From positions 1 to 64,000 of the forward strand of contig NZ_BLAD01000062.1 of NCBI RefSeq assembly GCF_009687845.1: DNA of 64,000 nt, given 5' to 3'. The position numbers were made by a program, and so were the translations under genes. Origin of the DNA: Acrocarpospora corrugata. GTDB taxonomy: Bacteria; Actinomycetota; Actinomycetes; Streptosporangiales; Streptosporangiaceae. The notes beneath the pieces are model-generated. The model was not told the origin of the DNA and did not search any database. It saw nothing but the letters and a program-made list of their open reading frames with translations. Positions 6,064 to 63,947 of the stretch are shown piece by piece; position 1 is the first letter of the stretch; every line of letters starts with the position of its first letter.

Positions 6064-7472
6064 GACGCCTGATCGAGAACCGCTTCGGCCTGCTCGCCCT
6101 GGTCCTGATCGCGCTGGCCGCCGTGTACGGCGGCGCGTTCGTCAGCCGCCCCGCCCCCGTCAAGGTCACCCCGGTCAAGCCGGTGCAGGCCGCGATCGAG
6201 TCGGTCTCCACCGTCTGCCCCGACCCCGGCGGCGCCACGATCAGCGCGGTCGCCCCGCCGGGCCCGCGCGGCTCCGGCCAGGCCGAGGTCCTGGACGGTG
6301 ACAAGCCGGTCACCCTCTCCGAGGCCGGCACGCTCTGGCAGAAGACCGCAGCCAAGGACGCCGACCCGATCCGGGTGATCGCCACCGGCGCGATGGCGTC
6401 GGGCCTGGAGGCCGCCAGGATCAGCAGGACGCTGACCGGCGACGCCCGCGGCCTGTCCGGCGTGCGCTGCGTCGAACCGAGCGCGAGCGCCTGGTTCGTC
6501 GGCCCTGGCCCGGCCGCCGCCGACCTCACCCTGCACCTGTCCAACGTGGAGGCCGCCCCCGCCGACGTCTCCTTCGTCGTGTACGCCGGCGAGGGCCTGG
6601 TCGTCACAGAACGCTCCACCGGCATGGTCCTGGACCCCGGCGAGCACCGCACCGTCAAGATCCGCGACGCCACCACCTCACCCCTGGTCATGGGCCTGCA
6701 CGTGATCGCAGGCCGGGGCCGGGTGACCGCCGCCGTGGAAGCAGAACTCGGCCGCGGCAACGGCGCCGACTGGCTGCCGCCCGCCGGTGAACCCGCCACC
6801 CGGGTGGTCGTCCCCGGCGTGCCCGGCAGCGCGGGCCAGCGCAAGCTCTACATCACCGCCCCCGGCGACCAGGACACCGTCGTCCAGGTGAAAGCCGTGC
6901 TCAAGGACGGTTCGTACGCCCTGAAGAACCGCGAGGAGGTCACCGTCCCCGCAGGCTCCACCACCACCATGGACCTGTCCACGGGCATCGGCGGACAGCC
7001 GGCCGCGCTCCTGCTCACCGCGCGGAACCCGATCGTGGCCGGGCTGGAGATCACCGGCACCGGCACCCTCCAGGACGTCGCGTACACGGCCGGAGCGCCC
7101 TCCATCGACCTCGGCAGCGTGGTCGCCGACGGAAGGGCCGGCAAGACGCAGACCTCGCGCCTGATCCTGTCCGCGCCCTTCGGGGCCGCCAGCGTGCGGG
7201 TCCAGATCCTGCTCAAGGAGGGCGCGCCCCCGCCGCCGACCCAGGTGGAGATCCCGGCGGGCCGGACCCGCGAGGTCAAGCTGACCGGCGACGGCAAGGG
7301 CTTCAGCGTCGTGATCACCCCGCAGCCAGGCTCAGGACCGGTGTGGGGCGGCCGGGTGATCGAGGAGAAGACCTCCTCCGGTCAGCTGGTCACCGCCCAG
7401 CCGCTGCAGGTGGCCAGAACCTGGGCGCTGGCGCCGCCCACGGTCGACTCGCCGCGCGCGGTGCTGCCCTGA
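6060..7472 (+). CDS. DUF5719 family membrane-anchored exported protein
   Basis: A 470-residue protein with one N-terminal hydrophobic anchor (about residues 9-28) and a long extracytoplasmic part of beta-rich character, matching the actinobacterial DUF5719 family that follows the WhiB-linked glycosyltransferase. The start is GTG 6060, overlapping the glycosyltransferase stop as GTGA, which supports coupled translation. The molecular function is not known. The coupling suggests it assists or is modified by the upstream glycosyltransferase at the envelope; this is inference. Confidence 0.8.
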   Translation: MRRLIENRFGLLALVLIALAAVYGGAFVSRPAPVKVTPVKPVQAAIESVSTVCPDPGGATISAVAPPGPRGSGQAEVLDGDKPVTLSEAGTLWQKTAAKDADPIRVIATGAMASGLEAARISRTLTGDARGLSGVRCVEPSASAWFVGPGPAAADLTLHLSNVEAAPADVSFVVYAGEGLVVTERSTGMVLDPGEHRTVKIRDATTSPLVMGLHVIAGRGRVTAAVEAELGRGNGADWLPPAGEPATRVVVPGVPGSAGQRKLYITAPGDQDTVVQVKAVLKDGSYALKNREEVTVPAGSTTTMDLSTGIGGQPAALLLTARNPIVAGLEITGTGTLQDVAYTAGAPSIDLGSVVADGRAGKTQTSRLILSAPFGAASVRVQILLKEGAPPPPTQVEIPAGRTREVKLTGDGKGFSVVITPQPGSGPVWGGRVIEEKTSSGQLVTAQPLQVARTWALAPPTVDSPRAVLP

Positions 7473-7473
7473 G

Positions 7474-7902
7474 TCAGTCCCCGTCGTATCCGGGATCCAC
7501 CGCCTCCGGGGTGAGCCCCAGCAGGCTGGCGACCTGTTCCACCACCACCGAGTGCACCAGCCCGGCCAGATGCTCGCGGTCCCTGGCGCGCGCCTCCATC
7601 GGCCGCCGGTAGACCACCACCAGCGCGGGTTCGCCGCCGGCCGCCGGTTCCGCCCGCCCGAACGGGATCGGGTCGGAGGCCAGCCGGCCAGGACCGTCGA
7701 TCAGCTCGCTGGCCCGGGGCACCTCCTCCACCCCGAACTCGACCGAGGCCAGTTCCTTGGACCAGCGCACCCGGAGCCGGTCCACCGCGTCCAGCACCAG
7801 GTCGTCGAAGCGCTCGCCGCGGGATCTGGCGATCGGCACGTGCGAGGGCGCCAGCGGGCCGCGCATGCCCCGGCCGTGGCGGTCGCGTCGTCGAGGACTC
7901 AT
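7474..7902 (-). CDS. metallopeptidase-like (zincin superfamily, DUF1025-related) protein lacking HExxH
   Basis: A 142-residue protein with an Arg-rich N-terminus and a conserved actinobacterial core (RFDDLVLDAVDRL; VVVYRRPMEARARDREHLAGLVH). It belongs to the short metallopeptidase-like family found between DUF5719 and DUF3499 genes. In active relatives the C-terminal helix carries HExxH. Here the corresponding segment reads VHSVVVEQVASLLGL, so the second metal-binding His and the catalytic Glu in their usual positions are absent. It may therefore be non-catalytic or use different ligands. It is convergent with the DUF5719 gene, stop to stop with 1 bp between them. The start is ATG 7902. Confidence 0.7.
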   Translation of the reverse strand: MSPRRRDRHGRGMRGPLAPSHVPIARSRGERFDDLVLDAVDRLRVRWSKELASVEFGVEEVPRASELIDGPGRLASDPIPFGRAEPAAGGEPALVVVYRRPMEARARDREHLAGLVHSVVVEQVASLLGLTPEAVDPGYDGD

Positions 7903-51456: not shown

Positions 51457-51467
51457 CCTCCGCAGGG

Positions 51468-51607
51468 TGGCTGACCTTCCGGCGTTGTGCCGGAGTCTGG
51501 TGTTCCACGCTGGACTCGGTTTGCCTTGCTTCCGCGGGCGGCTGGCCCTCCCGCTTGGCGCCGAGTCCGGTGTTTTACGCTGGAGCCGGTCTGCTTTGGG
51601 AGGGTTT
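51468..51607 (+). repeat. 70-bp imperfect tandem duplication upstream of a HAD gene
   Basis: 51468-51537 and 51538-51607 align without gaps over much of their length at period 70, for example TGTTCCACGCTGGACTCGGT (51501-51520) versus TGTTTTACGCTGGAGCCGGT (51571-51590). The second copy ends in the GGGAGGG ribosome site of the gene at 51608. Together they fill the gap after the GH3 gene. Confidence 0.8.
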
Positions 51608-52261
51608 GTGGTCAAGGGTGTGATCATCGACTGGGGTGGGGTTCTCACCACCGGGTTGGCTGAGGCGATCGAGGAGTGGCTTGCGGCTGATCGCATCGAT
51701 GGGTCGCGGTATCGCGATGTGATGCGGGAGCTGATCCTGCACGCCTACGAGGGGGCGGCCGATGGCGAGAACACGATTCACGCGCTGGAGCGCGGCGAGA
51801 TCTCGGCCGCGGATTTCGAGCTTGATCTGGCGGCGCGGCTGCTCACCCTGGACGGGGTGCCGCCGGTCGCCGAAGGTCTGCTGACCCGGATGTTCGCGGG
51901 CTTCCGCCCGGTCGAATCGATGAACGACATGCTCCGCCACGCCCGCGCCGCGGGGGTACGAACCTGCCTGCTCTCCAACTCCTGGGCCAACGACTACCCC
52001 CGCGACAACTGGCCCGACCTCTTCGACAAGATCGTCATCTCCGGCGAAGTCGGCATGCGCAAACCCGAACCCCGGATCTTCCACCACGCCCTGGACCTGC
52101 TCGCCCTCACCCCCGCCGACTGCGTCTTCATCGACGACATCCAGGCCAACATCACCGCCGCCCAATCCCTGGGCATCCACGGCCTCCACCACACCACCCC
52201 CACCACCACGATCACCCACCTGGAATCCCTCATCGGAGTCCCTCTCCGCAGCGCATCCTGA
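51608..52261 (+). CDS. HAD-like hydrolase
   Basis: A 217-residue HAD protein beginning (GTG 51608) MVKGVIIDWGGVLT. The nucleophile Asp is present; the second Asp of motif I is Gly (DWGGV), as is common in epoxide-hydrolase-type HADs. Motif II Ser is in CLLSNSWAN, Lys in MRKPEP and the metal motif in FIDDIQAN. GGGAGGG precedes the start. The substrate is unknown. It is preceded by the 70-bp tandem repeat. Confidence 0.85.
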   Translation: MVKGVIIDWGGVLTTGLAEAIEEWLAADRIDGSRYRDVMRELILHAYEGAADGENTIHALERGEISAADFELDLAARLLTLDGVPPVAEGLLTRMFAGFRPVESMNDMLRHARAAGVRTCLLSNSWANDYPRDNWPDLFDKIVISGEVGMRKPEPRIFHHALDLLALTPADCVFIDDIQANITAAQSLGIHGLHHTTPTTTITHLESLIGVPLRSAS

Positions 52262-52589
52262 AGTCCGCACGGCCTTGTCGTAGTTGTTGCGCGGCTGGGT
52301 GACCTTGTCGCCATCCGGAAGACGCGCCCGTCGTTGCGGCGTTCCGGCATGCCGTCCCTGGCCGGGACGGGCTTCGGAGCCGGGGAGCTGAATAGCTCTC
52401 GGGAGGGTTGGCGGAGCTGTGGATCGGCGCTTCGGGTCCAGGGGTTCTCGCCGGAAGTGGTGTGGTGCTGGCACACTCATGGGGTGATCGGCTGCGTCCG
52501 GGGTTCGGGGCGCCCCGGAATCCGTGCGGAGCTCTTCGTAATTCGGGCGGCCGTGGCAAAGCTTCAGCGTCGAACATCTTGGGGAACGC
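52262..52589. other. 328-bp gap with no convincing gene
   Basis: No start with ribosome site and family-like protein is visible on the plus strand. On the minus strand a run near 52262-52335 reads LPDGDKVTQPRNNYDKAVR, which looks protein-like for about 20 codons but continues as antisense of the HAD gene. It could be a decayed gene end. Palindromes are short and ordinary. Confidence 0.4.
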
Positions 52590-53096
52590 ATGCGTGTCTA
52601 TCTGCCGTGCACGCTTCCGGGCCTGGCCCGCGCCCTCGCGGCCGGCGAACTGGGACCGGGACCGATGGCGGGTTTCGCGGTGACGCCCGCGCTCGTCGAG
52701 TGGTACGTCTCCGGAGACACCGAGGAACTGGAGTACGTCGCCCTGATGGAGGCGGCCCGCGGATCGTTGCGCATGCTCGCGGCGGACAAAGCCGACGGTT
52801 TCGACGCCCCGGCCCGCCGGGTCGTAGTCGCCGCCGAAGTCCCCGACACCGCCGTCCTGGTGAGCCCCGACCTGAACGATCGCGGCCGCGTCCGAGTCCT
52901 GGAATCCGTGCCGATGGCGAACCTGGCCGCCGTCCACATCGACGACCTCCCCGCCCAGGAGGACGTCTCCGCAGCCCTCTCCGCCCTCTCCTCAGCCGAC
53001 GACGGCGACGACGACGCCCAGTTCATCGTGGACGGCGCCGACGCCCACGAACTCCTCTGGTACGCCACCCAGGAGATCCCCGATCTCCTGACCTGA
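52590..53096 (+). CDS. DUF6912 family protein
   Basis: A 168-residue conserved actinobacterial protein of unknown function beginning MRVYLPCTLPGLARAL, with an Asp-rich stretch near 135-150 (SSADDGDDDAQF) and the ending ELLWYATQEIPDLL. There is no membrane segment or signal peptide. ATG 52590 has GGGG 5-8 nt upstream. It is followed by the large SARP-type regulator after 22 bp. Confidence 0.8.
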   Translation: MRVYLPCTLPGLARALAAGELGPGPMAGFAVTPALVEWYVSGDTEELEYVALMEAARGSLRMLAADKADGFDAPARRVVVAAEVPDTAVLVSPDLNDRGRVRVLESVPMANLAAVHIDDLPAQEDVSAALSALSSADDGDDDAQFIVDGADAHELLWYATQEIPDLLT

Positions 53097-53118
53097 CTCG
53101 TCGTGGCACAATCCCCCC

Positions 53119-56100
53119 ATGCGGGCGATGTTCCATGTTCTTGGGCCCTTTTCGGTGCGCGTCGACGGACGCTCGATAGATGTCGGTGGGCCGCGCCCGC
53201 GGCTGCTGCTGGCGCGCCTGCTCGTCGCGCGCGGGGCCACCGTCTCCGTTGACGCGCTCCTCGACGGCCTCTACGACGGCGAGCCTCCGCCGCGTGCGCT
53301 GGGAACGCTCCACAGCTACATCTCCAACCTGCGCCGCCTGCTCGAACCCGGGCGCGCGCCGCGCACCCCCTCGGCGATGCTGATCAACAGGCCACCGGGG
53401 TACGCGCTCGGGCCGCACTGGCTGGACGCGGAGGAGTTCGTCCGGCTGTCAGGTCAGGGCAAGCACGACGACGCCCTGAAGTTGTGGCGCGGCACGCCGT
53501 ACGAGGAGTTCGCGGACGTGTCCTGGTTGCGGCCGGAGATCGAACGCCTGGAGCAGGCCCAGCTGACCGTTCGCGAGCAACGGCTGGCCGCGCTGGAGCC
53601 GGCGCCGGACATGGTCGCCGAGCTGGAAGGGCTGGCCAGGGCGCACCCGCTGCGGGAGAGCCTGTGGCAGACCCTGGCCCGGGCACTCTACCGGCTCGGA
53701 CGGCAGGCCGACGCACTCGATGCCCTGCGGGCGGCCCGGCGTCATCTGGCCGAGGAACTCGGGCTGGACCCGGGGCCGGGAATCCAGCGGCTCGAAGCGA
53801 TGATCCTGGAGCAGGATCCCGCGCTGGGGGACGCGGTTTTCGTGGGCGGCCCGGAACCAGAACCGGCGGCGCGACTGACGGTGGGGCGGGCCGCGCACCT
53901 CGATCGGCTCGCCGAGGTGGCCGCCGACGTCAGCGCCGGTCAAACCCGCATGGTGGTGGTCTCCGGCGAACCGGGCATCGGGAAGACCTGGCTCGCGGCG
54001 GAGTTCGCGCGCGGGCGGCAGGCCCAGGGGTGGCTGGTGGCGTGGGGCCACTGTCACGAGATGTCAGGCGCGCCGCCGCTGTGGCCATGGCGGCAGATCG
54101 TCGGGGAACTGGCTGAGCACGCCCCTCCGAACCATGCGGACGCGCTCGGCCTGCTCACCGACGATCAGGACGAGCGTAACCGTACCGGCCATCGCGATGG
54201 TGAGGCGGGGGAGGCCAGGTTCAGGCTCCACCGGGCGGTGGCCGATTACTTCGCGTCGGTGTCGGCCGCCCGGCCGCTGCTGTTGCTCCTCGACGACCTG
54301 CAGTGGGCGGACGCCGCCTCCCTCGGGCTCCTCGCCGACCTGGCCAAACTGCAGCGGGGGCGGGTCGCCGTCGTCATCACCGTACGTTCGGGCGAGGGCA
54401 CACCCGCCATGTACGACGCGCTCGGCATGGTGGGGCGCAGCCAGGCGCTGCGACTGCCGCTGGCCGGGCTCGACGCCGCCTCGGTCGGCGAACTGTCGGG
54501 TCTCGATCCCGAACGGGCCTCCGCGCTGGCCGAGCGCACGGGCGGCAACCCGCTGTTCATTCGCGAGACCCTGCGGCTGGCCGAGGACCAGGGGCTGGCC
54601 CGGGCGCTCGGCACGGTGCCCGAAGGGCTGGCGGACGTGCTGCGGCAGCGGATCAGGCGACTGCCCGAGGCGTACCGCACCGTTCTGGAGGCGGCGGCAG
54701 TGGCGGGCGACGCGACTGACCCGCTACTGCTGGCCGAAGTCCTCGCAGAGACGAATCCGTCGGCCGAAGAGGCCACGGAGATGCTGGTGGGGGAGGCGGT
54801 GGCGGCGGCTCAGGGCGCCCGGTTGCTCGGCGACGACCACGCGTTCGCCCATGGTCTGATCCGGGAGACCTGCTACGCCGACCTGTCGGCCCGGCGCCGG
54901 ACCGCGCTGCACCTGGCCGTGCTGCACGGGCTGGAGCGCCGTCCGGCGGCCGACCTGACCGCTATGGCCGCGCATGCCCTGGCCGCCGGACCCATCGGAG
55001 CGGCACCGGCCGTGGAGCTGTGCGCCGCGGCGGCAGGGCAGGCAGCGGGCCGGCACGCCTACGAGGACGCGGTCATGTGGTGGCGGCGGGCGGCGGACAC
55101 GCACGGCCGGCTGCCCGGCGCCGATCCGGCGCGGCACGTGGAGCTGCTGCTCGGCCTCGTCCGCGCTCAGCTCGACGCCGGCGACGGTTTCGCCGCGCGG
55201 GCCACTCGCAACGAGGCGGTGTTCGCCGCCGACAGGACCGGCGGCGACGCTCTGGCCGCGCGGGCGCTGACCAGTCTCGACGCGCCGGGCCTGTGGAAGT
55301 TCTACACCTACGGGGACATGGAAGTGCACTCGGTCGAGCGGATCGAGAGCGTGCTCGACCGGTTGCCCGGAGACGACTCTGAACTGCGCTGCCGCCTGCT
55401 CGGCTGCCTCGGCATGGAGCGGTACGACGGCTCGGCGGACCCGCGGTGCGACCTCGCCACGGCGGAGGCGCTGGCGATGGCCCGTCGCCTGGTCGCCGGG
55501 GGAGCGGACAAGCGGCTGCTGGCCATCACGCTCAACGCCCGCTACCTGGGCGTCCAGCTGCCCGAGCGAATGCGCGAGCTCGACTCGATCGGCGACGAGC
55601 TGGTGGAACTGGGACTGCCCGGCTTCGAGCTGCTCGGCCGGCTGATCCAGGAGCGGACCCGGCTGGAACTGTACGACGTGCGCGGCGCGGACGAGGCCGC
55701 CCACCGGGCCGGCCGGCTGGTCGAGCGGCTCGACCTGCCCTGGCCCCGCTTCCAGCACCTCATCTACTCGGGTGCCCGGCGGCTCATGGAGGGCGACCGG
55801 GCGGGTGCGGAGGAGGCGTACACGGCCGCGGCCGAGGCGGGGGAGCGGCTCAACCTATGGCACACGGAGGCGACGCTGGCCGCGGGTCTCATCTGCGCCC
55901 AGCTGCACAACGGCGAGCCCGTCGAAGACGAGGAGCTGATCGCGCGATTCTCGCCGTTCCCGGCGCATCGGCAGGTCATCCGCGCCGTGTCGGCGTCCTA
56001 CAGAGGCGACACGGAGACGCTGGCGGCGATCCGCCGGGAGGGCTGGCGCCCGCTGCCGCGTGATTTCACCGAGCTGGCCACGACCTGCCTGAGCGGGCTG

Positions 56101-56337
56101 GCCATGCAGGCGGCCGGGGACGTGGCGGGGAGCCGGCACGTGTACCAGCGGCTGCTGCCCTACGAGGACCGCCTGGCGTTCGGGGCGGGGACGTTCCCCG
56201 CCGGGCCGGTCGGCTACTACCTCGGCCTGCTCGCCGCGGATCCCGGGGCCCGCCGCGCCCACCTCGACGCGGCGGCGGAGCGCTGCGAGCGGGCCGGTCT
56301 GACCTGGTGGGCCAGGCGCATCACAAGTGTTCGTTGA
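53119..56337 (+). CDS. giant SARP/BTAD transcriptional regulator with P-loop ATPase and TPR-like region (copy 1)
   Basis: A 1072-residue regulator: OmpR-type winged helix (1-95: FHVLGPFSVRVDGRSIDVGGPRPR), BTAD (~95-240, ending LGLDPGPGIQRLE), a STAND/AAA-like NTPase with Walker A GEPGIGKTW near 283 and Walker B LLLLLDDLQWAD near 385-396, then ~500 residues of TPR-like helices. There is no C-terminal LuxR HTH. The start is ATG 53119; ATG 53128 is an alternative. It is paralogous to the regulator at 59841 along its whole length. A hemerythrin gene begins 34 bp later. Its trigger and targets are unknown. Confidence 0.85.
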   Translation: MRAMFHVLGPFSVRVDGRSIDVGGPRPRLLLARLLVARGATVSVDALLDGLYDGEPPPRALGTLHSYISNLRRLLEPGRAPRTPSAMLINRPPGYALGPHWLDAEEFVRLSGQGKHDDALKLWRGTPYEEFADVSWLRPEIERLEQAQLTVREQRLAALEPAPDMVAELEGLARAHPLRESLWQTLARALYRLGRQADALDALRAARRHLAEELGLDPGPGIQRLEAMILEQDPALGDAVFVGGPEPEPAARLTVGRAAHLDRLAEVAADVSAGQTRMVVVSGEPGIGKTWLAAEFARGRQAQGWLVAWGHCHEMSGAPPLWPWRQIVGELAEHAPPNHADALGLLTDDQDERNRTGHRDGEAGEARFRLHRAVADYFASVSAARPLLLLLDDLQWADAASLGLLADLAKLQRGRVAVVITVRSGEGTPAMYDALGMVGRSQALRLPLAGLDAASVGELSGLDPERASALAERTGGNPLFIRETLRLAEDQGLARALGTVPEGLADVLRQRIRRLPEAYRTVLEAAAVAGDATDPLLLAEVLAETNPSAEEATEMLVGEAVAAAQGARLLGDDHAFAHGLIRETCYADLSARRRTALHLAVLHGLERRPAADLTAMAAHALAAGPIGAAPAVELCAAAAGQAAGRHAYEDAVMWWRRAADTHGRLPGADPARHVELLLGLVRAQLDAGDGFAARATRNEAVFAADRTGGDALAARALTSLDAPGLWKFYTYGDMEVHSVERIESVLDRLPGDDSELRCRLLGCLGMERYDGSADPRCDLATAEALAMARRLVAGGADKRLLAITLNARYLGVQLPERMRELDSIGDELVELGLPGFELLGRLIQERTRLELYDVRGADEAAHRAGRLVERLDLPWPRFQHLIYSGARRLMEGDRAGAEEAYTAAAEAGERLNLWHTEATLAAGLICAQLHNGEPVEDEELIARFSPFPAHRQVIRAVSASYRGDTETLAAIRREGWRPLPRDFTELATTCLSGLAMQAAGDVAGSRHVYQRLLPYEDRLAFGAGTFPAGPVGYYLGLLAADPGARRAHLDAAAERCERAGLTWWARRITSVR

Positions 56338-56371
56338 GTCGCGCCGTAGTGGGCGCGGCCATCGTGGTCGC

Positions 56372-57004
56372 ATGACGACGAACATCGAACGGGGCACGGG
56401 CCCCGACCTCACGCTCTTCCTGGCTTTCCACCGTGGGCTCCGCCGCGATTTCGGCCGCCTCGCCGAGGCGCTGGACCGCTGCCCGGCCGGGGACGAGCGC
56501 CGCCGCGCCCTCATCGACGAGCACACCGCCATGCAGCTGCGGGCCCTGCACCACCACCACTCGGACGAGGACGCCAACATCTGGCCGCTGCTCCGCTCCC
56601 TGGTGCCCGAGTCCACCGAGGTGCTGGACCGGCTGGAGGCCGAGCACCAGGAGATGGACGACGTGATCGCGCGCCTCACCGGGCGTCCACGCCCGGCGCC
56701 GGAGCAGGCCCGCGACCTGCGCCGGCTGCACGAGCTGCTGAACACGCATCTCGACCTGGAGGAGTCCCAGGTGGTCCCGCTGATCCGAGCGCACATCACA
56801 CCCGAGTGGTGGGAGGAGTCGGGCAAGGCGGTCGTCAAGAGCCACGGGCGGGAGCTGCCCATGGTGGCCGCGTGGACCCTGGACGCCGCGTCCGAGGAAC
56901 AGCGGGCCCACATCCTCGCCACCGTGCCGCTGATCATGCGGGTGCTCTACCGGCTGGCCTGGCGTCGGGCGTACGAGCGACGTGTCGCGCAGGTGTTCGG
57001 CTGA
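56372..57004 (+). CDS. hemerythrin HHE-domain protein (copy 1)
   Basis: A 210-residue helical protein with an HHE-type non-haem iron site: HHHHSDEDANIWPLL (~65-80), EHQEMDD and LLNTHLDLEESQVVPLI supply His and Glu ligands. It binds oxygen or NO-type ligands or iron in known relatives. It lies 34 bp after the SARP regulator on the same strand, so the two are probably co-expressed. ATG 56372 begins MTTNIERGTG. A hairpin terminator follows. The second hemerythrin at 63160 has a different C-terminal half. Confidence 0.88.
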   Translation: MTTNIERGTGPDLTLFLAFHRGLRRDFGRLAEALDRCPAGDERRRALIDEHTAMQLRALHHHHSDEDANIWPLLRSLVPESTEVLDRLEAEHQEMDDVIARLTGRPRPAPEQARDLRRLHELLNTHLDLEESQVVPLIRAHITPEWWEESGKAVVKSHGRELPMVAAWTLDAASEEQRAHILATVPLIMRVLYRLAWRRAYERRVAQVFG

Positions 57005-57009
57005 CGCTG

Positions 57010-57036
57010 GAGCCCGGGCGAAGTGCACCCGGGCTC
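57010..57036 (+). terminator. hairpin terminator after hemerythrin copy 1
   Basis: GAGCCCGGG (57010-57018) and CCCGGGCTC (57028-57036) form a perfect 9-bp stem with a 9-nt loop, 6 bp past the stop. Confidence 0.75.
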
Positions 57037-57065
57037 ACCCCTGCTCCAGCTAAAGCGTTGACGGA

Positions 57066-57092
57066 CGATAAGTCGAGATATATCTTGAATCC
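57066..57092. promoter_or_regulatory. AT-rich palindromic operator upstream of the SIP gene
   Basis: AGATATATCT (57076-57085) is a perfect palindrome within a longer imperfect one (GATAAG...CTTGAATC), in a 25-bp AT-rich patch in GC-rich DNA, 75 bp upstream of ATG 57160. PadR-family regulators bind ATATCT-type palindromes, and siderophore-interacting-protein genes often have such sites nearby. No PadR gene is in this window. Confidence 0.55.
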
Positions 57093-57159
57093 GCTTTGGT
57101 CGGTCCGGTGGAGGAGAGGGGTCAGGGGCAAAGTCGGTGGTGGCTTTGTTCCGTGGGAT

Positions 57160-57888
57160 ATGGGTGCTTCTACTGGGTTGGGGCGGCGGGTTCGGGATCT
57201 GATTCTGGTTACCGGGGTGGTGACCGAGGTTCGGATGGTGGCGGGGAGGATGCGGGGGATTCGGGTTGAAGGGGATGGGGTTGGGGGGTTGGCGTGGGCT
57301 GCGGGGCAGCAGGTTCGGGTTCTGGTGACGGATCCGTTGGCGTTTCGGAACTGGCGGCGGCCTGGGGACTTTCTGCGGACCTATTCGGTTTGGGATCTTG
57401 ATGGGGGGTTGGAGTTGCGTGTTCTCGATCATGGGGAAGGGCCGGGGGCGCGGTGGGCTCGGCGGGTGGCTGTCGGGGATGAGGTGACGTTCAACAAGCC
57501 TGAGGGGGCGTTCGTCGTGCAGGAGGGGGCGTACCACCTGTTCGTGGGGGAGGAGACGGCGGCGGTCGCGTTCGGGCCGATGATCCGGGGGCTGGGGGAC
57601 GCCTCCGTGTTCGGGGTTGTCGAGGTCGCGGGGAAAGACGATCTGCTTGAGCTGGGGGACGCGGTTCGGTGGATTTTCCGGGGGGAGCGGAGCGCGGCGG
57701 AGTCGGGGGAGTTGGTCGAGGCCGTTCGAGGGTTGAGCCTGCCGGCGGAGGCCGGGGTCGCGTATGTGGCGGGGGAGGCGAAGACCATCCAGATGGTGCG
57801 TGATCACCTCGTGCGGGAGCGGGGGTGGCCTCGGCGGGCGGTGCTGACCAAGCCGTTCTGGACACCGGGAAGAGTGGGCCTTGAGTAA
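57160..57888 (+). CDS. siderophore-interacting-type FAD oxidoreductase
   Basis: A 242-residue protein with an FAD-binding half (RMRGIRVEGDG; FLRTYSVWDLDGGLELRVLDHGEGPGARWARRVAVGDEV) and a C-terminal NAD(P)H-like half (HLFVGEETAAVAFGPMIR; AGEAKTIQMVRDHLVRERGW). The AGEAKTIQMVR motif is typical of the SIP family, which reduces Fe(III)-siderophores in the cytoplasm. ATG 57160 lacks a strong ribosome site (GTGGG only). Unlike its neighbours it uses many G-ending codons. The 3' end overlaps a short direct repeat. Confidence 0.8.
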   Translation: MGASTGLGRRVRDLILVTGVVTEVRMVAGRMRGIRVEGDGVGGLAWAAGQQVRVLVTDPLAFRNWRRPGDFLRTYSVWDLDGGLELRVLDHGEGPGARWARRVAVGDEVTFNKPEGAFVVQEGAYHLFVGEETAAVAFGPMIRGLGDASVFGVVEVAGKDDLLELGDAVRWIFRGERSAAESGELVEAVRGLSLPAEAGVAYVAGEAKTIQMVRDHLVRERGWPRRAVLTKPFWTPGRVGLE

Positions 57889-57948
57889 GACCGAGATTCA
57901 CCGCAAGCAGGGCAAACCGGCTCATCGCGAGAGTGGGCCTTGGGTAAG
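57871..57948 (+). repeat. 19-bp direct repeat spanning the SIP stop, 59-bp spacing
   Basis: AGAGTGGGCCTTGAGTAAG (57871-57889), which codes for the last residues and stop of the SIP protein, recurs at 57930-57948 with one substitution. The rest of 57949-58076 shows no gene. Confidence 0.8.
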
Positions 57949-58076
57949 GGCGTTCGGTGGGAGATTTCCGGTGGTGTGGCCGGGCGAGCACTGGTGAGTG
58001 AGGTAGCCGCCTGGGTTGGAGCCTATGAGGTGGGTGACCAGGGGGTTGTCGGTGGGGTCTATTAAACTGGCGGACG

Positions 58077-58745
58077 ATGACACACATTGTTTGGGACTGG
58101 AACGGGACGCTCTTTCACGACACGGATGCGGTCGTTGGAGCTACGAATGAGATCTTCCGGCCGTATGGGGTGGGGCCGTTTGATCTTGAGGGGTTTCGGG
58201 AGGTTTATACGCGGCCGATCTGGGTGGCGTATGAGCGGATCATCGGGCGGCCGCTCGCGGAAGGCGAGTGGGAGCAGCTCGATCACGGGTTTCATCTCCA
58301 CTACCACGAGCTGATGCTGGCGTGTCAGCTCGCGGAGGGTGCGACGGCGAGTCTGCGGGCCTGGGGCGACTCGGGGCGGACGCAGTCGCTGCTGTCGATG
58401 TGGGGACACGATCGGCTGGTGCCGAAGGTGGGCGAGTTCGGGCTCGACCATCACTTCGCCCGGGTGGACGGGCTCCGGGCCGCTTCCGGCGGGCCCAAGG
58501 CGGAGCACATGGTCCTGCACCTCAAGGCCCTCGATCTCGATCCTGGTCAGGTCGTGGTGATCGGGGACAGCGTGGATGACGCGCATGCCGCGCAGCACGT
58601 CGGGGCCAGGGCGATCCTCTACACCGGAGGCATGACCCGCCGGTCGGAGCTGGAGCGGGTCGGCGTCCCCGTCGTGGACTCGTTGCAGCAGGCACTGAAC
58701 CTCGCTGACACAGGTTCGGCGGAAAGCAGACGATCCATCCACTAG
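58077..58745 (+). CDS. HAD-like hydrolase
   Basis: A 222-residue HAD protein beginning MTHIVWDWNGTLFHD: the nucleophile Asp is present and the second Asp of motif I is Asn, a common natural variant in actinobacterial HADs. Motif III/IV are in GGPKAEHM and VVIGDSVDDAHA. The start is ATG 58077. Substrate unknown; phosphoglycolate-type phosphatase is one possibility. It is followed by a hairpin and another HAD gene. Confidence 0.85.
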   Translation: MTHIVWDWNGTLFHDTDAVVGATNEIFRPYGVGPFDLEGFREVYTRPIWVAYERIIGRPLAEGEWEQLDHGFHLHYHELMLACQLAEGATASLRAWGDSGRTQSLLSMWGHDRLVPKVGEFGLDHHFARVDGLRAASGGPKAEHMVLHLKALDLDPGQVVVIGDSVDDAHAAQHVGARAILYTGGMTRRSELERVGVPVVDSLQQALNLADTGSAESRRSIH

Positions 58746-58750
58746 CGGGC

Positions 58751-58774
58751 AATCCATCCGGCATTGGATGGGTT
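58751..58774 (+). terminator. hairpin between the two HAD genes
   Basis: AATCCATCC (58751-58759) pairs with GGATGGGTT (58766-58774) through nine positions including one G-T pair, loop GGCATT, 6 bp past the stop. A weak terminator. Confidence 0.5.
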
Positions 58775-58835
58775 AACTGGGGTGGGTTGGTCGTACGCTG
58801 AGCGGAGTTGAGGTTTTCCCCCCTCGGAGGTCGCG

Positions 58836-59555
58836 ATTAACCGGCTCGTGCTCTGGAATGTCGATCTGACGTTGGTCGACGTCACGATCGTTGCTCGCGA
58901 CGCGTATGCCGACGCGTTCCGGATGGTGACCGGGCGGCCGTTGGTGAAGCTGGCCGTGGCCATGGGGAGGCCGGACTCGGAGATCATCTTCGAGACATTG
59001 GCGATCAACGGGATTCAGGTGGAGGACTATCACCTGCCCCGGTTCATCGACGCGCTGGCCGTGGCGTTCACCGACAAGCGGCGGCGACTGGACAAAGAGG
59101 GCAGGGCGATGCCGGGCGCCAAGGACGCGCTGAAGGCGATCTCCCGCCTCGACGGGGTCGTCCAGTCCGTGCTGACCGGCACGATCAAAACCAACGCCGT
59201 GCACAAATTAGCCGCCTTCGGCCTGAACAAGTGGGTGGACTTCGAGGTCGGCGGGTACGGCGAAGAGGTCTACCCCAAAGCCACCCTGCTCCAGGTCGCC
59301 CAAGGCCGCGCCAAGGACAAGTACGGCTTCCGCTTCGACGCCGGGAACACCGTCCTGATCGGCGACTCCACCCGCGACGTCCAGGCCGCCCAGATCGGCG
59401 GCGCCGCCATGATCGCCGTAGCCTCGGGCCGCTCCACCGAGGCCGAACTACGCGAAGCTGGCGCGGACATCATCCTCCCCGACCTCGCCAACGCCTCCGA
59501 AGTCGTCGCCGCCATCGCCCGCCTCACCAGCCCGGTCAACCGCAAAGCCAGCTGA
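58836..59555 (+). CDS. HAD-like protein with ATT start and Asp-to-Asn nucleophile
   Basis: A 239-residue HAD-fold protein. CGGAGG (58825-58830) is 5 nt before ATT 58836, giving the natural start (M)NRLVLWNVDLTLVD. No ATG, GTG or TTG occurs in frame between the upstream stop at 58809 and GTG 58848, which would be 17 nt from that ribosome site and would delete the first beta strand. Motif I reads N-V-D instead of D-x-D, so the catalytic Asp is Asn (codon AAT). The remaining motifs (SVLTGTIKTN; YPKAT; VLIGDSTRDVQA) are intact. Possibly a binding or regulatory protein. Confidence 0.7.
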   Translation: MNRLVLWNVDLTLVDVTIVARDAYADAFRMVTGRPLVKLAVAMGRPDSEIIFETLAINGIQVEDYHLPRFIDALAVAFTDKRRRLDKEGRAMPGAKDALKAISRLDGVVQSVLTGTIKTNAVHKLAAFGLNKWVDFEVGGYGEEVYPKATLLQVAQGRAKDKYGFRFDAGNTVLIGDSTRDVQAAQIGGAAMIAVASGRSTEAELREAGADIILPDLANASEVVAAIARLTSPVNRKAS

Positions 59556-59646
59556 CCCGCCCTCGATCGCGTCGGTCCCTGGTGCGGGACGCCGCATGCC
59601 CAAGCATGCTGCGATTCTCCACTCGGGCGACGAGCCGGCCGCAGTG

Positions 59647-59763
59647 ACGGAATGGGCGGGCAATCGCGACCGGTCAGGACCGAAGGCAGGGCTGGGCGGT
59701 CCGTCACGGAATGGTGGGCAACCGCGAGCGGCCGGGCATGAGGGCATGGCTCGGCGGTCCGCT
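59647..59763 (+). repeat. 59-bp imperfect tandem duplication upstream of the second giant regulator
   Basis: ACGGAATGGGCGGGCAATCG (from 59647) and ACGGAATGGTGGGCAACCGC (from 59706) begin two adjacent units of 59 and 58 bp, each ending in a GGCGGTCCG-type segment. The surrounding gap 59556-59840 otherwise has only a GCATGC-CCAA-GCATGC hairpin (59594-59609) and no gene. Confidence 0.8.
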
Positions 59764-59806
59764 AATCCCCGTTTGCTTCGTTCCAACCTGTCGCCCCACT
59801 ATTAGG

Positions 59807-59818
59807 GCGATAAATCGC
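59807..59818. promoter_or_regulatory. GCGAT-AA-ATCGC palindrome 22 bp upstream of the second giant regulator
   Basis: A perfect 5-bp-arm inverted repeat in an AT-richer patch just before the gene at 59841. It is well placed for an operator overlapping the promoter, perhaps autoregulatory. Confidence 0.4.
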
Positions 59819-59840
59819 TACAAGTCCCGGGTGGGTACGG

Positions 59841-62800
59841 ATGCGTTTCCAGGTGCTTGGGCCGCTTGAAGCGTTTGACGTGGACGGCCGGTCGATCGCG
59901 CTCGGCCCCCGGCGTCAGCGGGCCGTGGTGGCGCGGCTGCTCATCGCCAGCGGCCGGGTGGTCCCCGCGGATCGCCTGATCGAGGACCTCTGGGGGGATT
60001 CGGTCTCCACCGGCGCCTCCGGACTGCTCCAGTCGAACATCTCACTGCTCAGGCGCGTCCTCGAACCGGATCGCCCCCCGCGCACTCCCGCGAAAATCCT
60101 GGTCAGCGCCGCCCCCGGCTACGCCCTCCGGTTCCAGCCCGACGACCTGGACGCCTGGCTCTTCGAGCAGGAAGTCCGCCAGGCCGAGGAGTCGGATCTG
60201 TTCCGCGCGCCCGCCCAGGCCGTCAGCCTGCTGGATCGCGCGCTCGCCCGCTGGCAGGGCCCCGCGTACTCGGAGGTCGCGGGAGACGACTGGGCGGGAC
60301 CGGAGGTCGTACGCCTGGACGAGCTGCGGGCGCACGCCCGGCAGCTGCGCGCGATGGGCCTGCTGGGTTCCGGCCGGGCGGCCGCGGCGGCGGCCGAGCT
60401 GGAGGTGCTGGTCGCCGAGTCGCCGCTGCGGGAGGAGTCGTGGCGGCTGCTGGCGCTGGCGCTCTACCGGTCGGGACGCCAGGGCGACGCGCTGTCGGTC
60501 CTGCGCCGCGCCCGGGATGTCCTGATCGCCGAACTCGGCGTGGATCCGGGCCCGCGCCTGCGCGAGATCGAGGTCGCCGTCCTGGCCCAGGACCCGGCCC
60601 TCGACCAGACGACCATGCTGCACGGCGTCGGCGGCGGCGAATCCATAACGGCGATCGAGCAGCCCCCGCCGCTCGAAAGGGCGGAACCGAATGATCGCCT
60701 GATCGGACGCGAAGCCGAACTCAAGACGCTGCGCGACCGGGCCCAGTCGATCCTGGCCACCGGCCGGCGCGGCGCGGCCCTGATCTCCGGGGAGCCGGGC
60801 ATCGGGAAGAGCGCCCTGGTCGGCGCGCTGGCGGCGGAACTGGAGGCCCAGGGCTGGGCGGTCTCCTGGGGACGCTGCCCCGAGGCGGAGGGTTCGCCCG
60901 CGCTCTGGCCGTGGGCGCAGGTCATGACCACGTTCGACCAGGCCGTCCCGCGCACCCGCGAGGAGTGGGAGGTGCTCCGGCTGGGCGCCTCCACCACCCG
61001 CTTCCACGTTCATCGTGCTTTGTCCGGATATCTCGCCCGAGTGGCCGCCGTCCGGCCCCTGCTGGTCGTCCTGGACGATCTCAACCGCGCGGACGAGGCG
61101 ACCCTGGGCGCGCTCCGCGACCTCGCCGCCGACCCGGAACCCGCCGCGGTCTTCGTGGTCGGCACCTACCGCTCCGCCGAGGTGAGCGAGGAACTCGCGG
61201 AAACCTGTTCAGCCCTGGCCAGGCAGGAGGCGGCCAGGATCGACCTGACCGGCCTCGCCGCCGCCGACGTGGCCGCCCTGGTCCGGCTGACCTGCGCCGA
61301 GGTCGACGCACAGGACCGCGCCGACGAGTACGCGGTGGCCGCCATCGCGGCCCGCAGCGACGGCAACCCGTTCTACGCCAGGGAGACCGCCCGCCTGCTG
61401 GCGAGCGAGGGCGTGCTGGTCGCCACCAGCGAGGTCCCGGCCGGCGCCGCCGACGTGATCAGGCGGCGGGTGGCCCGGCTCCCCGCGGTGGCCAAGAACG
61501 TGCTGCGCACCTTCGCCGCCGTCGGCCGCGAGGCCGAGGTCTCCGTGCTGGTACGGGCCGAGCCCCACCACACCGACGAGGTCTACGACGCACTGGAGAT
61601 CGCCATCGTGGCCGGCCTGCTGGAGGAACCCGCCCCCGGCAAGGTCCGCTTCGCGCACGCCCTGGTCATGGACACCATCTACCGCGACCTGCCCAAACTA
61701 CGCAGGGCCCGGCTGCACTTCCGGATCGCCGAGGCGATGGAGGAGCTCCGCCCTGCCGACGTCGGCGCGCTCGCGCACCACTTCGCGGAGGCCGCCACGC
61801 TGGGCTGCGCCGACAAGGCGGTCCGGTACTGCCGGGCGGCAGCCGTACAGGCCGAGCAGCGGTTCGCGTACCGGTCGGCGGTGGCGCTGTGGGCGCGGGC
61901 GCTGACCGTGCATCTCGTGGATCCACGCGCGGACCTGCGGGTACGCGCCGAGTTGCTGCGCGAGCGGGCCAGGGCCGAGCAGCTGGCCGGGCTGGCGCAG
62001 TCGGCGCGCGAGTCACGCGCGGAGGCGATCAGGAGCGCGGAGGTGACCGGCGACCGGGCGCTCACCGCCGCGGCGATCACGGCCATCGACACGCCGATGA
62101 TGTGGAACAACCGCAATCACGGTCAGACCGACGTGGCCCACGTCGAGCTGATCAGCCGTACCCTGGCCGGGCTGCCGGACGGTGAGACCGAGCTGCGGGC
62201 CCGGCTGCTGGCGACGTTCGCGCTGGAGGCCGCCATCTGGCACGACCCGGCAGGGGCGTCCGCCGCGGCCGAGGAGTCGGTGGCGCTGGCCAGGACGCTG
62301 GGGAACGCTTCCGTGCTGGTGGTCGCGCTGAACGCGTACTACATCGTCAATCGCGTACCCGGAAAATACGATCTGGTGCTGGAGATCGGGGCGGAGCTCG
62401 TCGAGCTGGGCCGGCGGGAACGCCTGCCGGGGGTGGAGGCGCTCGGCCTGCTGTCCCGCAGTTCCGCGCTGCTGGCCCGGGGCGCGGTGGAGGAGGCGTC
62501 GGTGCTGATCGAGGCCGCCCGCGAGCTCGCGGAACGGTATGAGCTGCGCGAAGCCGCCGCGCTGGCCGGCCTGGCCGTGGCCGCGATCGAGCGCCTCCAG
62601 GGCCGCGAGAGCGAGGCGGAACGGATGTTCGCCGAGGTCGCGGCGAAGGCCGTGGAAGCTGAAATGTGGGACATCTACGGCTCGATGATGCTGGTCCGCG
62701 TGTGCCGCCTGCACGAAACCGGACGGCTGCCCGAGGCGGAACCGGATATCCAGCAGCTGAGCGCGGCCTACCCCGAGGCCGCCCGCCCGCTGGTCGCCCT

Positions 62801-63152
62801 GCAGGCCGCGATCGAGGGCCGCCCGGACGCCGCGGGGCTGCTCCGCCACGAACCGCCCTTCGACTACCTCTGGCTGCTCATGCAGGCGTTCCGCGCCGAC
62901 GCCGCGATCCTGCTCGCGGACCGCGCGATCGCTGAAGAGCTCTACGGGACGCTGGCGCCGTACCGCGACTGCGTGAGCGGGGGCGAGACCATGGCCATGG
63001 TGCTGGCGCCGGTCGCGGAGCGGCTGGCCGGGCTGGCCGCCCTGCTCGGCCGGGATCCGAGCGAGGACTGGCGGCAGGCGCTCAAGGTCGCGCAGCGGGC
63101 CGGAGCCCCCCACTGGGAGGCTCGGGCCCGCGCCGCGCTGCCGGGCGGCTGA
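59841..63152 (+). CDS. giant SARP/BTAD transcriptional regulator with P-loop ATPase and TPR-like region (copy 2)
   Basis: A 1103-residue paralogue of the gene at 53119 with the same order: winged helix (1-95: RFQVLGPLEAFDVDGRSIALGPRRQR), BTAD ending LGVDPGPRLREIE, NTPase with Walker A GEPGIGKSA near 317 and Walker B LLVVLDDLNRAD near 406, then TPR-like helices. Shared phrases such as RPPRTPAKIL/RAPRTPSAML and LWPW in the NTPase support common descent. The start is ATG 59841. It is convergent with the second hemerythrin gene, whose stop lies 8 bp away. No LuxR HTH at the end. Confidence 0.85.
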   Translation: MRFQVLGPLEAFDVDGRSIALGPRRQRAVVARLLIASGRVVPADRLIEDLWGDSVSTGASGLLQSNISLLRRVLEPDRPPRTPAKILVSAAPGYALRFQPDDLDAWLFEQEVRQAEESDLFRAPAQAVSLLDRALARWQGPAYSEVAGDDWAGPEVVRLDELRAHARQLRAMGLLGSGRAAAAAAELEVLVAESPLREESWRLLALALYRSGRQGDALSVLRRARDVLIAELGVDPGPRLREIEVAVLAQDPALDQTTMLHGVGGGESITAIEQPPPLERAEPNDRLIGREAELKTLRDRAQSILATGRRGAALISGEPGIGKSALVGALAAELEAQGWAVSWGRCPEAEGSPALWPWAQVMTTFDQAVPRTREEWEVLRLGASTTRFHVHRALSGYLARVAAVRPLLVVLDDLNRADEATLGALRDLAADPEPAAVFVVGTYRSAEVSEELAETCSALARQEAARIDLTGLAAADVAALVRLTCAEVDAQDRADEYAVAAIAARSDGNPFYARETARLLASEGVLVATSEVPAGAADVIRRRVARLPAVAKNVLRTFAAVGREAEVSVLVRAEPHHTDEVYDALEIAIVAGLLEEPAPGKVRFAHALVMDTIYRDLPKLRRARLHFRIAEAMEELRPADVGALAHHFAEAATLGCADKAVRYCRAAAVQAEQRFAYRSAVALWARALTVHLVDPRADLRVRAELLRERARAEQLAGLAQSARESRAEAIRSAEVTGDRALTAAAITAIDTPMMWNNRNHGQTDVAHVELISRTLAGLPDGETELRARLLATFALEAAIWHDPAGASAAAEESVALARTLGNASVLVVALNAYYIVNRVPGKYDLVLEIGAELVELGRRERLPGVEALGLLSRSSALLARGAVEEASVLIEAARELAERYELREAAALAGLAVAAIERLQGRESEAERMFAEVAAKAVEAEMWDIYGSMMLVRVCRLHETGRLPEAEPDIQQLSAAYPEAARPLVALQAAIEGRPDAAGLLRHEPPFDYLWLLMQAFRADAAILLADRAIAEELYGTLAPYRDCVSGGETMAMVLAPVAERLAGLAALLGRDPSEDWRQALKVAQRAGAPHWEARARAALPGG

Positions 63153-63159
63153 TCGGGGC

Positions 63160-63852
63160 TCACCCGAAGATGAGCTGGTGGAACCGGCGGTACTTGCCGC
63201 TGAACAGGCGGTTGGCGATCCGGAAGGCCAGCGGGGTGAGCGCGAGCGCGGCCGGGACCTCGGCGGCCGGGATGGCCGAGACCGACCAGGGGATGAGGAA
63301 CCAGAGGTTCTTCTTCGGGTAGTTCGTCATCATCTGGTGCTCCCAGGACTGGAAGTCGGCCACGGAGACGTAGGTCCGGATGATCGGGAAGATGTCGCGC
63401 TCCTCCTCGTCGATGTGCTCGTCGAGCAGGTCGCGCAGCACGGTCGAGTCGGTGGCGAGGGTCTCGCGGGCGGTCAGGTCGCCGGGGTGGGTGACCAGCA
63501 GGGTGGAGGCGCGGCGCAGCCGGTCCAGGATGGGGTCGAGCTGGTCGTGGTCGGCGGTGAACGGCTCCAGGTCGACGGCGTGGCCGGCGGACGCCTGGAT
63601 GATCGGCCAGCCGACGGTGTCCTCGCCGTGGTGGTGGAGGTGGATCTCCTCGGTCATCAGGCGGACGTACTCGGCGAGGGCTTTGGCTCGGGCGGGGGTG
63701 AGCGGGACCGTGCCATCGCGCAGGGTGTGCGCGAGGGCGGCGAGTTCGCGGGCGCCCTGGCGCATCGCCCGGTGCGCGACGCCGTAGATCGTCAGGTTCA
63801 CTTCGGGGTCGCCGGGGCGGCGCGGCCGGATGGTGGTCGTGGCGGGGGCCAT
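63160..63852 (-). CDS. hemerythrin HHE-domain protein (copy 2)
   Basis: A 230-residue protein with HLHHHGEDTVGWPII (~72-86), DHDQLDP and LLDEHIDEEERDIFPII supplying HHE iron ligands, then a C-terminal extension of ~70 residues (WFLIPWSVSAIPAAEVPAALALTPLAF) with a hydrophobic stretch that could touch the membrane. The start is ATG 63852. It faces the second giant regulator tail to tail with 7 bp between. It is related to the 56372 protein in the iron-site region but differs elsewhere. Confidence 0.87.
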   Translation of the reverse strand: MAPATTTIRPRRPGDPEVNLTIYGVAHRAMRQGARELAALAHTLRDGTVPLTPARAKALAEYVRLMTEEIHLHHHGEDTVGWPIIQASAGHAVDLEPFTADHDQLDPILDRLRRASTLLVTHPGDLTARETLATDSTVLRDLLDEHIDEEERDIFPIIRTYVSVADFQSWEHQMMTNYPKKNLWFLIPWSVSAIPAAEVPAALALTPLAFRIANRLFSGKYRRFHQLIFG

Positions 63853-63947
63853 GATGCTCCTTCGTGGTGGGCTGTCCCTCTGAGGGTGCGACCTCGCACT
63901 TTGAGCTTTCTTGGATCCCGCTCCGAGGGGAGGGCAGGATGGGGGCC

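Follow-up and report, generated by a model that had tools for sequence, protein, structure and literature searches.

The window analysed here, a stretch of 64,000 nucleotides from contig NZ_BLAD01000062.1 of Acrocarpospora corrugata, contains two modules, A and B, in each of which a large regulator of the SARP family, with BTAD and NTPase domains, lies next to the gene of a hemerythrin of the HHE family. Judging from the sequences, the pairing of these regulators with hemerythrins is real and conserved, and the regulator is quite probably an activator of the AfsR/SARP-LAL type whose direct target is the neighbouring hemerythrin gene, reached through CAAG repeats. The linkage of both genes, their co-divergence, the position and spacing of the operators and the intact iron ligands of the hemerythrins are all evident in the sequences compared.

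Linkage and co-divergence of regulators and hemerythrins

The genome of A. corrugata (9.27 Mb in 170 contigs) gave 10 matches to the hemerythrin family PF01814 and 51 to BTAD. Six of these 10 genes directly adjoin a BTAD gene (both of the window and those on contigs C78, C117, C53 and C50), the adjacency expected by chance being about 1% per HHE gene, an estimate that assumes some 8,400 genes. Five of the six (not that of C50), together with the gene on contig C110, encode a C-terminal extension of about 65 residues and are referred to as long-tailed hemerythrins (HHE-T). The C110 gene (L039, 9032-9709) is the only HHE-T gene of this genome without an adjoining regulator, and its product has lost the last glutamate ligand. 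Among the four tail-less HHE genes, one, that of C50, adjoins a short SARP.

A profile built from the six HHE-T of A. corrugata was searched at E <= 1e-25 in 148 genomes of the class, this one included. HHE-T was present in 51 of them, with 84 genes, and each locus was read up to about 6 kb per side, or less at contig ends. A BTAD-NTPase regulator was located within 500 bp of the HHE-T gene in 35 of the 84 loci, which belong to 19 genomes, 10 genera and 6 families; 16 of these pairs were convergent (one of them, L103, with a frame-broken regulator), 15 codirectional and 4 divergent. Owing to the nearest-regulator rule, the first regulator of locus L157 (3185) is not in the pair lists. The 49 remaining genes, which argue against an obligate pairing, comprised five with a regulator 1.4-3.2 kb off and 44 with none in the stretch read. 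No alternative partner common to the unpaired HHE-T genes was found in the 76 neighbours scanned out of 97 listed, the rest being short or doubtful open reading frames (ORFs); the commonest matches were TetR_N (4), MarR (3) and MMPL (2). As control, tail-less HHE genes were taken, namely 21 of the 26 matches below 80 bits, leaving out G007:C268, G007:C284, G015:C5 and contigs C60 and C41 of A. corrugata. In these 20 loci of relatives, some of them with short stretches, no BTAD gene was adjacent to any of the 21 genes; for one of them such a gene lay at a distance of about 4.8 kb. Neither of the two A. corrugata stretches left out contained a BTAD match.

Twenty further loci of relatives comprised 12 paired HHE-T genes, six unpaired and two at contig edges; the contig-edge HHE B loci L275 and L278, of the same genus, stand outside the paired and unpaired counts. 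The orientation seen in A. corrugata was kept in the C53-type (five), C78-type (five) and A-type (one) pairs of relatives. In the genus of G030 and G090 the C78-type pairs are codirectional as well, and in both genomes the A-type and C78-type modules stand in tandem. In G001 and G002 the B-type regulator ends at a contig edge and separate contigs carry HHE B at theirs, so that the B pair is likely to be present in these genomes too. The assembly breaks fall at the expected junction of regulator B with HHE B (G001:C41 / C111 and G002:C130 / C111), a region that may be hard to assemble.

In addition, a regulator-first sample was obtained by scanning named GTDB genomes with the regulator alignment. 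Among the best 80 of 166 loci, 32 had a BTAD score above 200. The stretch read contained an HHE-T gene for eight of these 32 regulators, directly adjacent in seven cases (Pseudonocardia oroxyli, two Nocardioides, Streptomyces humi with its divergent pair L205, Streptomyces sp. H27-H5, Dactylosporangium sucinum and Nocardia harenae) and about 1.1 kb away in Streptomyces sp. NBC_01214, and it contained none for the other 24.

In the HHE-T tree, obtained with a quick method, the paired label required 11 changes, against 27 in shuffles. In the regulator tree, the 34 paired regulators grouped, with strong support, with four near-by ones and seven unpaired ones of A. corrugata, and 16 further BTAD regulators of this genome fell outside. 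Patristic distances of 33 pairs, L103 being left out for its broken frame, correlated with r = 0.82, and with r = 0.79 when four pairs 1.4-2.4 kb apart were added. Free re-pairing gave r of at most 0.20, and re-pairing within genomes a mean of 0.31 and a maximum of 0.74, so that none of 1000 re-pairings reached the observed value. The sequence-only reading of the window had stated that the pairing would be coincidental if both genes rarely co-occurred in other genomes or their trees disagreed. Linkage exceeds chance, with 35 of 84 HHE-T genes against 0 of 21 tail-less ones, and the trees co-diverge, in part with the exception of their deep nodes; therefore, the pairing is not coincidental and, as far as sequences tell, both genes have been passed on together for a long time.

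Predicted CAAG-repeat operators before the hemerythrin genes

Alignment of the divergent C53-type intergenic regions revealed CAAG-type units every 11 bp. Spacing was then analysed in upstream stretches of 200 bp, taken from 47 paired HHE genes, 49 unpaired HHE genes and 46 regulators. A 6-of-7 repeat at 11 bp was present in 38 of the 47 paired HHE upstreams and one at 22 bp in 35, the remaining spacings between 8 and 25 bp giving 6 to 26; repeat triples at 11 bp were found in 20 of the 47, against 0-4 at other spacings. The 11-bp repeat also appeared before 18 of the 49 unpaired HHE genes and 13 of the 46 regulators, 8 of these 13 in divergent pairs. When near-alike upstreams were reduced to 25 paired, 48 unpaired and 26 non-divergent regulator representatives, two exact CAAG units 11 bp apart were identified in nine of the paired HHE promoters and in none of the unpaired or the regulator ones. 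In named loci unused in discovery, the exact pair at 11 bp was present in 4 of 8, and each other spacing from 8 to 33 bp gave 0 to 2.

Exact triples showed the same periodicity. The 103 loci searched (1.33 Mb; 99 with HHE-T and four of A. corrugata with tail-less HHE) contained 26 with the 11-bp spacing and 0-2 for each spacing of 8, 9, 10, 12, 13, 14 and 15 bp, and none was found in 20 control loci (226 kb). A leave-kin-out position weight matrix, built without near kin of the sequence being scored and with the 99% shuffle level as threshold, was passed by 33 of the 47 paired HHE promoters, 2 of the 49 unpaired ones (L165, where a regulator stands 2.4 kb off, and L112, whose contig measures 3.8 kb) and 0 of 37 non-divergent regulator promoters. 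The 33 passing promoters carry CAAG-ending heptamers with 4-bp spacers; both window modules have this arrangement in degenerate form only. Operators of SARP type were seen before paired HHE genes in convergent, codirectional and divergent layouts, and no sign of autoregulation, that is, an operator before the regulator gene, appeared outside divergent pairs (0/37). The hemerythrin gene, with operators in all three layouts and none in non-divergent regulator promoters, therefore looks like the output of the system.

The exact triple was also searched in 29 genomes, 25 of which have the pair (G154, with the regulator 2.3 kb off, being counted). It was located before the HHE gene or its MMPL partner in 16 of the 25. 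Six genomes (G019, G155, G101, G111, G078 and G139) contain one single exact triple, placed at the HHE promoter; the others contain 0 to 9, and the reversed pattern occurs 0-4 times per genome. Regarding the window itself, operator A scored 8.7 bits (p = 0.009 vs shuffles), and its CAAG and TGAG units are kept in the orthologues L282, L154, L155 and L157. Operator B scored 5.8 bits (p = 0.027), under the 99% shuffle level of 8.5, and lies within a block, GGGATCCAAGAAAGCTCAAAG, that is conserved in the same-genus loci L275 and L278.

Genes other than hemerythrins were also found behind such repeats. On the other flank of the C53 regulator lies an MMPL gene preceded by another exact operator, as in G001-G004. 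MMPL genes were present in 8 of 51 paired loci (five of the eight being C53-type) vs 1 of 44 unpaired. In L126, L128, L208 and L158 MMPL and HHE genes are in line and the operator precedes MMPL (with one mismatch in L208), and in L116, counted as unpaired, exact operators precede both genes. MMPL-type transporter genes thus recur (L036 13059-15225, L126, L128, L158, L165 and L208), either behind an operator of their own or in one line with HHE. Among regulators without HHE, that of Actinomadura kijaniata (L194) has the operator before an MMPL gene, that of Geodermatophilus sabuli (L201) before a divergent flavin-oxidase-like gene, named by eye, and those of A. corrugata C59 and G004:C89 have an exact CAAG-repeat operator before a gene of the ODP family (PF19583; ODP stands for oxygen-binding di-iron protein). 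These ODP-family genes lie directly 3' of their regulators (L325 5363-6061 and L330 ~6897-7589), that is, a beta-lactamase-fold protein occupies the position of HHE directly after a like regulator, although the fold is unrelated and the arrangement was seen in these two genomes only. The C59 regulator, the one of these four placed in the tree, falls within the paired-regulator group. No CAAG triple was detected at the other HHE-less regulators examined, e.g., L197, L198 and L206.

The short SARP of contig C50 (L038 8259-9723), a 289-aa frame with no NTPase match, lies directly before the tail-less HHE gene, upstream of which CCCCAAG and CCCCAAC are separated by 4 bp. Since this is again an 11-bp spacing, control of HHE genes may extend to another kind of SARP.

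The window modules, their proteins and known relatives

The features of both modules are listed in Table 1. The sequence-only reading had described two large paralogous regulators of like domain order, each adjoining a different hemerythrin gene, and both points hold. BTAD (PF03704) and AAA_16 (PF13191) were above the Pfam cut-off in regulators A and B, the winged-helix match (PF00486) was above it in B only and below it in A, and both proteins share 36% identity across almost their full length. The gaps are 34 bp on the same strand between regulator A and HHE A and 7 bp between the convergent regulator B and HHE B. The term duplicated module, also used in that reading, needs correction where it implies a local copy. 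HHE A and HHE B are only 26% identical and, in both trees, A and B belong to different old lineages and are not mutual nearest kin, so the window holds no recent duplicate. A recent local duplication is ruled out by these identities and separate lineages, and the idea that the regulator was copied with its partner stands as an old event only.

Table 1. Features of modules A and B in the window.
Feature	Coordinates	Strand	Description and evidence
Regulator A, SARP/BTAD-NTPase activator	53119..56337	+	1072 aa; winged helix-turn-helix (wHTH), BTAD, AAA_16 NTPase, alpha-solenoid; ORF, Pfam, structure model
Predicted operator A	56310..56349	+	Degenerate 11-bp direct repeats (CAAG/TGAG/GTAG units), overlapping the regulator A stop codon; position weight matrix
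HHE A, long-tailed hemerythrin (HHE-T)	56372..57004	+	210 aa; all six di-iron ligands; PF01814, model
Regulator B, second large SARP/BTAD-NTPase activator	59841..63152	+	1103 aa; ORF, Pfam
HHE B, long-tailed hemerythrin	63160..63852	-	230 aa; ligands conserved; PF01814; convergent with regulator B
Predicted operator B	63899..63927	-	Degenerate 11-bp repeats (CGGAG/CCAAG/CAAAG), upstream of HHE B; position weight matrix

The model of regulator A (mean pLDDT 83, pTM 0.57) has an alpha-solenoid C-terminus and matches AfsR, EmbR and a STAND-TPR protein. The N-terminal wHTH-BTAD was matched to the AfsR type by sequence and fold (8k60, 8hvr). Neither a LuxR-type helix-turn-helix (HTH) nor a cyclase catalytic domain was found in regulators A and B with Pfam at E <= 0.001. 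Partial similarity to the TOMM kinase/cyclase model TIGR03903 was below its cut-off, and with the AfsR equivalog model NF053617, whose cut-off is 1430 bits, the regulators scored 109 and 138.

HHE A and HHE B matched PF01814 with 57.9 and 61.8 bits (cut-off 25.3), and the RIC/YtfE model TIGR03652 with only 26.1 and 20.4 bits (cut-off 204.7). The di-iron ligands of HHE A are H20, H62, E66, H92, H126 and E130, and all six are present in 35/35 paired and 47/49 unpaired HHE-T. In the model of HHE A (mean pLDDT 93.7), a helical bundle is extended at the C-terminus by further helices at 144-172, 175-183 and 187-209. The nearest solved relatives by sequence were YtfE, NMB1532, FBXL5, ScdA and 6q09, and by fold NMB1532 and the domain of FBXL5, with weak E-values; the fold search with HHE A gave no match at E <= 0.001 and showed no relative of the C-terminal tail. 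The FBXL5 hemerythrin domain is an iron and oxygen sensor. These proteins share with HHE-T the helical-bundle di-iron fold and the H..HxxxE..H..HxxxE ligands. HHE-T differs from them in its C-terminal extension of some 65 residues, since the solved chains are matched by the profile no further than position 159 of 213, and from YtfE/RIC in the low model scores.

The architecture of the regulators, with winged helix and BTAD, an AAA_16 half and neither LuxR HTH nor cyclase domain, is that of the SARP-LAL group (PimR, FilR, PteR, ScnRI, SanG and PolR), described as a SARP domain with an AAA/LAL-like half in the part consulted of a review (PMC10972967). According to passages of PMC3367932 and PMC5930380, PimR is the archetype of the SARP-LAL group and its footprint covers three CGGCAAG heptamers separated by 4 bp; SanG and PolR share this heptamer. 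The HHE-linked sites likewise have heptamers ending in CAAG, 4-bp spacers and three copies; the likeness to PimR, SanG and PolR concerns architecture and operator type. The members described in these passages control antibiotic genes (pimM in the case of PimR), whereas here the operator precedes hemerythrin, MMPL and ODP genes. AfsR has the same order of wHTH-BTAD, NTPase and helical repeats and an 11-bp repeat operator (PMC10936776, in part), but the AfsR box consists of two repeats with a sequence unlike the one found here in the passage of PMC10972967, the NTPase of regulators A and B is AAA_16 in Pfam, and their scores are far under the AfsR NCBIfam cut-off. In the sections seen of the AfsR study, inhibition of the SARP domain comes from the NOD and TPR domains and is relieved by ATP, and the question of the inducer is left open (PMC10936776). 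No described link between a SARP and a hemerythrin was found in the open-licence PMC literature, among the matches listed, in agreement with the sequence-only reading, which knew of no description of such a pairing. The regulator family and the operator type are known; the hemerythrin as their target was not found described.

Concerning neighbouring genes, those between the modules are one siderophore-interacting-protein-like gene and two HAD hydrolases. The former (57148-57888; FAD_binding_9 and SIP) lies 3' of HHE A, and the window has three HAD hydrolases within 51467-59555. In L124 (1607-2800, with a like match in L121), an extra HHE domain is in frame behind what appears by eye to be a deazaflavin-dependent nitroreductase; this gene is directly upstream of the regulator, which therefore has HHE genes on both sides. 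A conserved 69-aa gene is divergent from C78-type HHE (L031 10078-10287, L101, L103, L172 and L173); its L031 copy had no Pfam match.

Models for the regulator and hemerythrin pair

By analogy with AfsR and PimR, the HHE-linked regulators would be signal-gated activators of the hemerythrin gene. The N-terminal winged helix and BTAD would bind DNA, while the NTPase and helical-repeat half would hold the regulator off until a signal comes. The neighbouring regulator would then bind at least two repeats, heptamers with CAAG or a close variant of it at their end, 11 bp apart and mostly about 45-120 bp before the target gene, and activate it. The target would be the adjoining long-tailed di-iron hemerythrin gene and, in some lineages, also an MMPL-type transporter gene. 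The hemerythrin would act as effector and probably handle O2, NO, peroxide or iron. A broader version, in which this whole SARP-LAL/STAND lineage serves actinomycetes in responding to O2, NO, peroxide or iron, an oxidant or gas being sensed by the helical-repeat half, with di-iron proteins (long-tailed hemerythrin or, in other loci, ODP) and MMPL switched on and the hemerythrin feeding back on the signal, is conceivable but doubtful.

Several observations weigh against the hemerythrin gene as direct target of its neighbour. The exact triple before HHE or MMPL is missing in 9 of the 25 genomes with the pair (G009, G030, G156, G064, G125, G055, G096, G157 and G050), and in the six single-hit genomes the reversed pattern yields 0 to 3. 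In A. corrugata, three of six exact triples lie outside any module, and the reversed pattern also gives three. (The off-module triples are G000:C57:110049, G000:C103:17614 and G000:C138:1091, with similar sites in same-genus genomes.) Fourteen of the 47 paired HHE promoters, that of module B included, are below the 99% level, and an operator placed before the upstream MMPL gene accounts for no more than two of them, L126 and L128. Both sites of the window are degenerate, as their p values indicate, and for each of them 2 of 86 control promoters (L112 and L165, which may be real sites) score as high. Another of the SARPs of the same genome, with its 51 BTAD matches, could bind the site. Finally, deep nodes of both trees conflict in places: C53-type HHE are far from C78-type HHE, and the corresponding regulators are close.

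The sequence-only reading was right in taking the pairing as non-coincidental; its suggestion that the hemerythrin supplies the signal was not supported. Such a sensor pair, in which HHE binds O2, NO or peroxide and passes its state by contact to the NTPase/helical half, agrees with the co-divergence, with the conservation of the six ligands in all paired HHE, with the FBXL5 domain, a sensor, being among the nearest solved structures, and with the 15 codirectional pairs, in which both genes could be co-expressed. However, vertical inheritance of a linked activator and its target would give the same co-divergence, 16 of the 35 pairs are convergent and hence not co-transcribed, and a SARP-type operator of its own precedes the paired HHE gene in each of the three orientations. 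No open frame of the loci read combines HHE and BTAD matches. Besides, neither partner is always accompanied by the other in the stretches read: 49 of 84 HHE-T genes have no near regulator (44 none at all), HHE-T is missing around 24 of the 32 regulators obtained in the regulator-first sample, and HHE-less regulators have operators before other genes. As unpaired HHE-T are common and 47 of 49 keep their ligands, the hemerythrin appears to work without the regulator. The HHE operators and the frequent unpaired genes disfavour the hemerythrin as obligate sensor, and we consider a sensor pair improbable.

The operator and the adjacency in every orientation would be explained if the regulator switched HHE on and the hemerythrin in turn consumed or reported the signal and tuned the regulator. 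As 0 of 37 non-divergent regulator promoters carry the operator, there is no sign of transcriptional feedback, and this variant is given a small chance. Coincidental neighbourhood, or hitch-hiking, of two common families could be imagined from their abundance in A. corrugata (10 HHE and 51 BTAD matches), but in view of the difference between HHE-T and tail-less genes in linkage, the co-divergence and an operator largely confined to paired genes it is very improbable. Activation of the hemerythrin gene by its neighbour is the reading that we favour.

SARP regulators found in genomes are usually read as flags of antibiotic clusters, and the role of hemerythrins in actinomycetes is, to our knowledge, mostly unknown. 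A review, in the part consulted, also treats SARPs as regulators of antibiotic clusters (PMC10972967). The present results suggest that the target of a lineage of large SARPs is of housekeeping or stress type, namely a di-iron hemerythrin with which they are paired in at least six families, and caution that not every large SARP marks an antibiotic cluster. With the exact triple occurring once in 6 of the 29 genomes, one activator and one promoter would offer a simple system for studying what large STAND-type SARPs sense, and actinomycete hemerythrins would gain a testable regulatory context.

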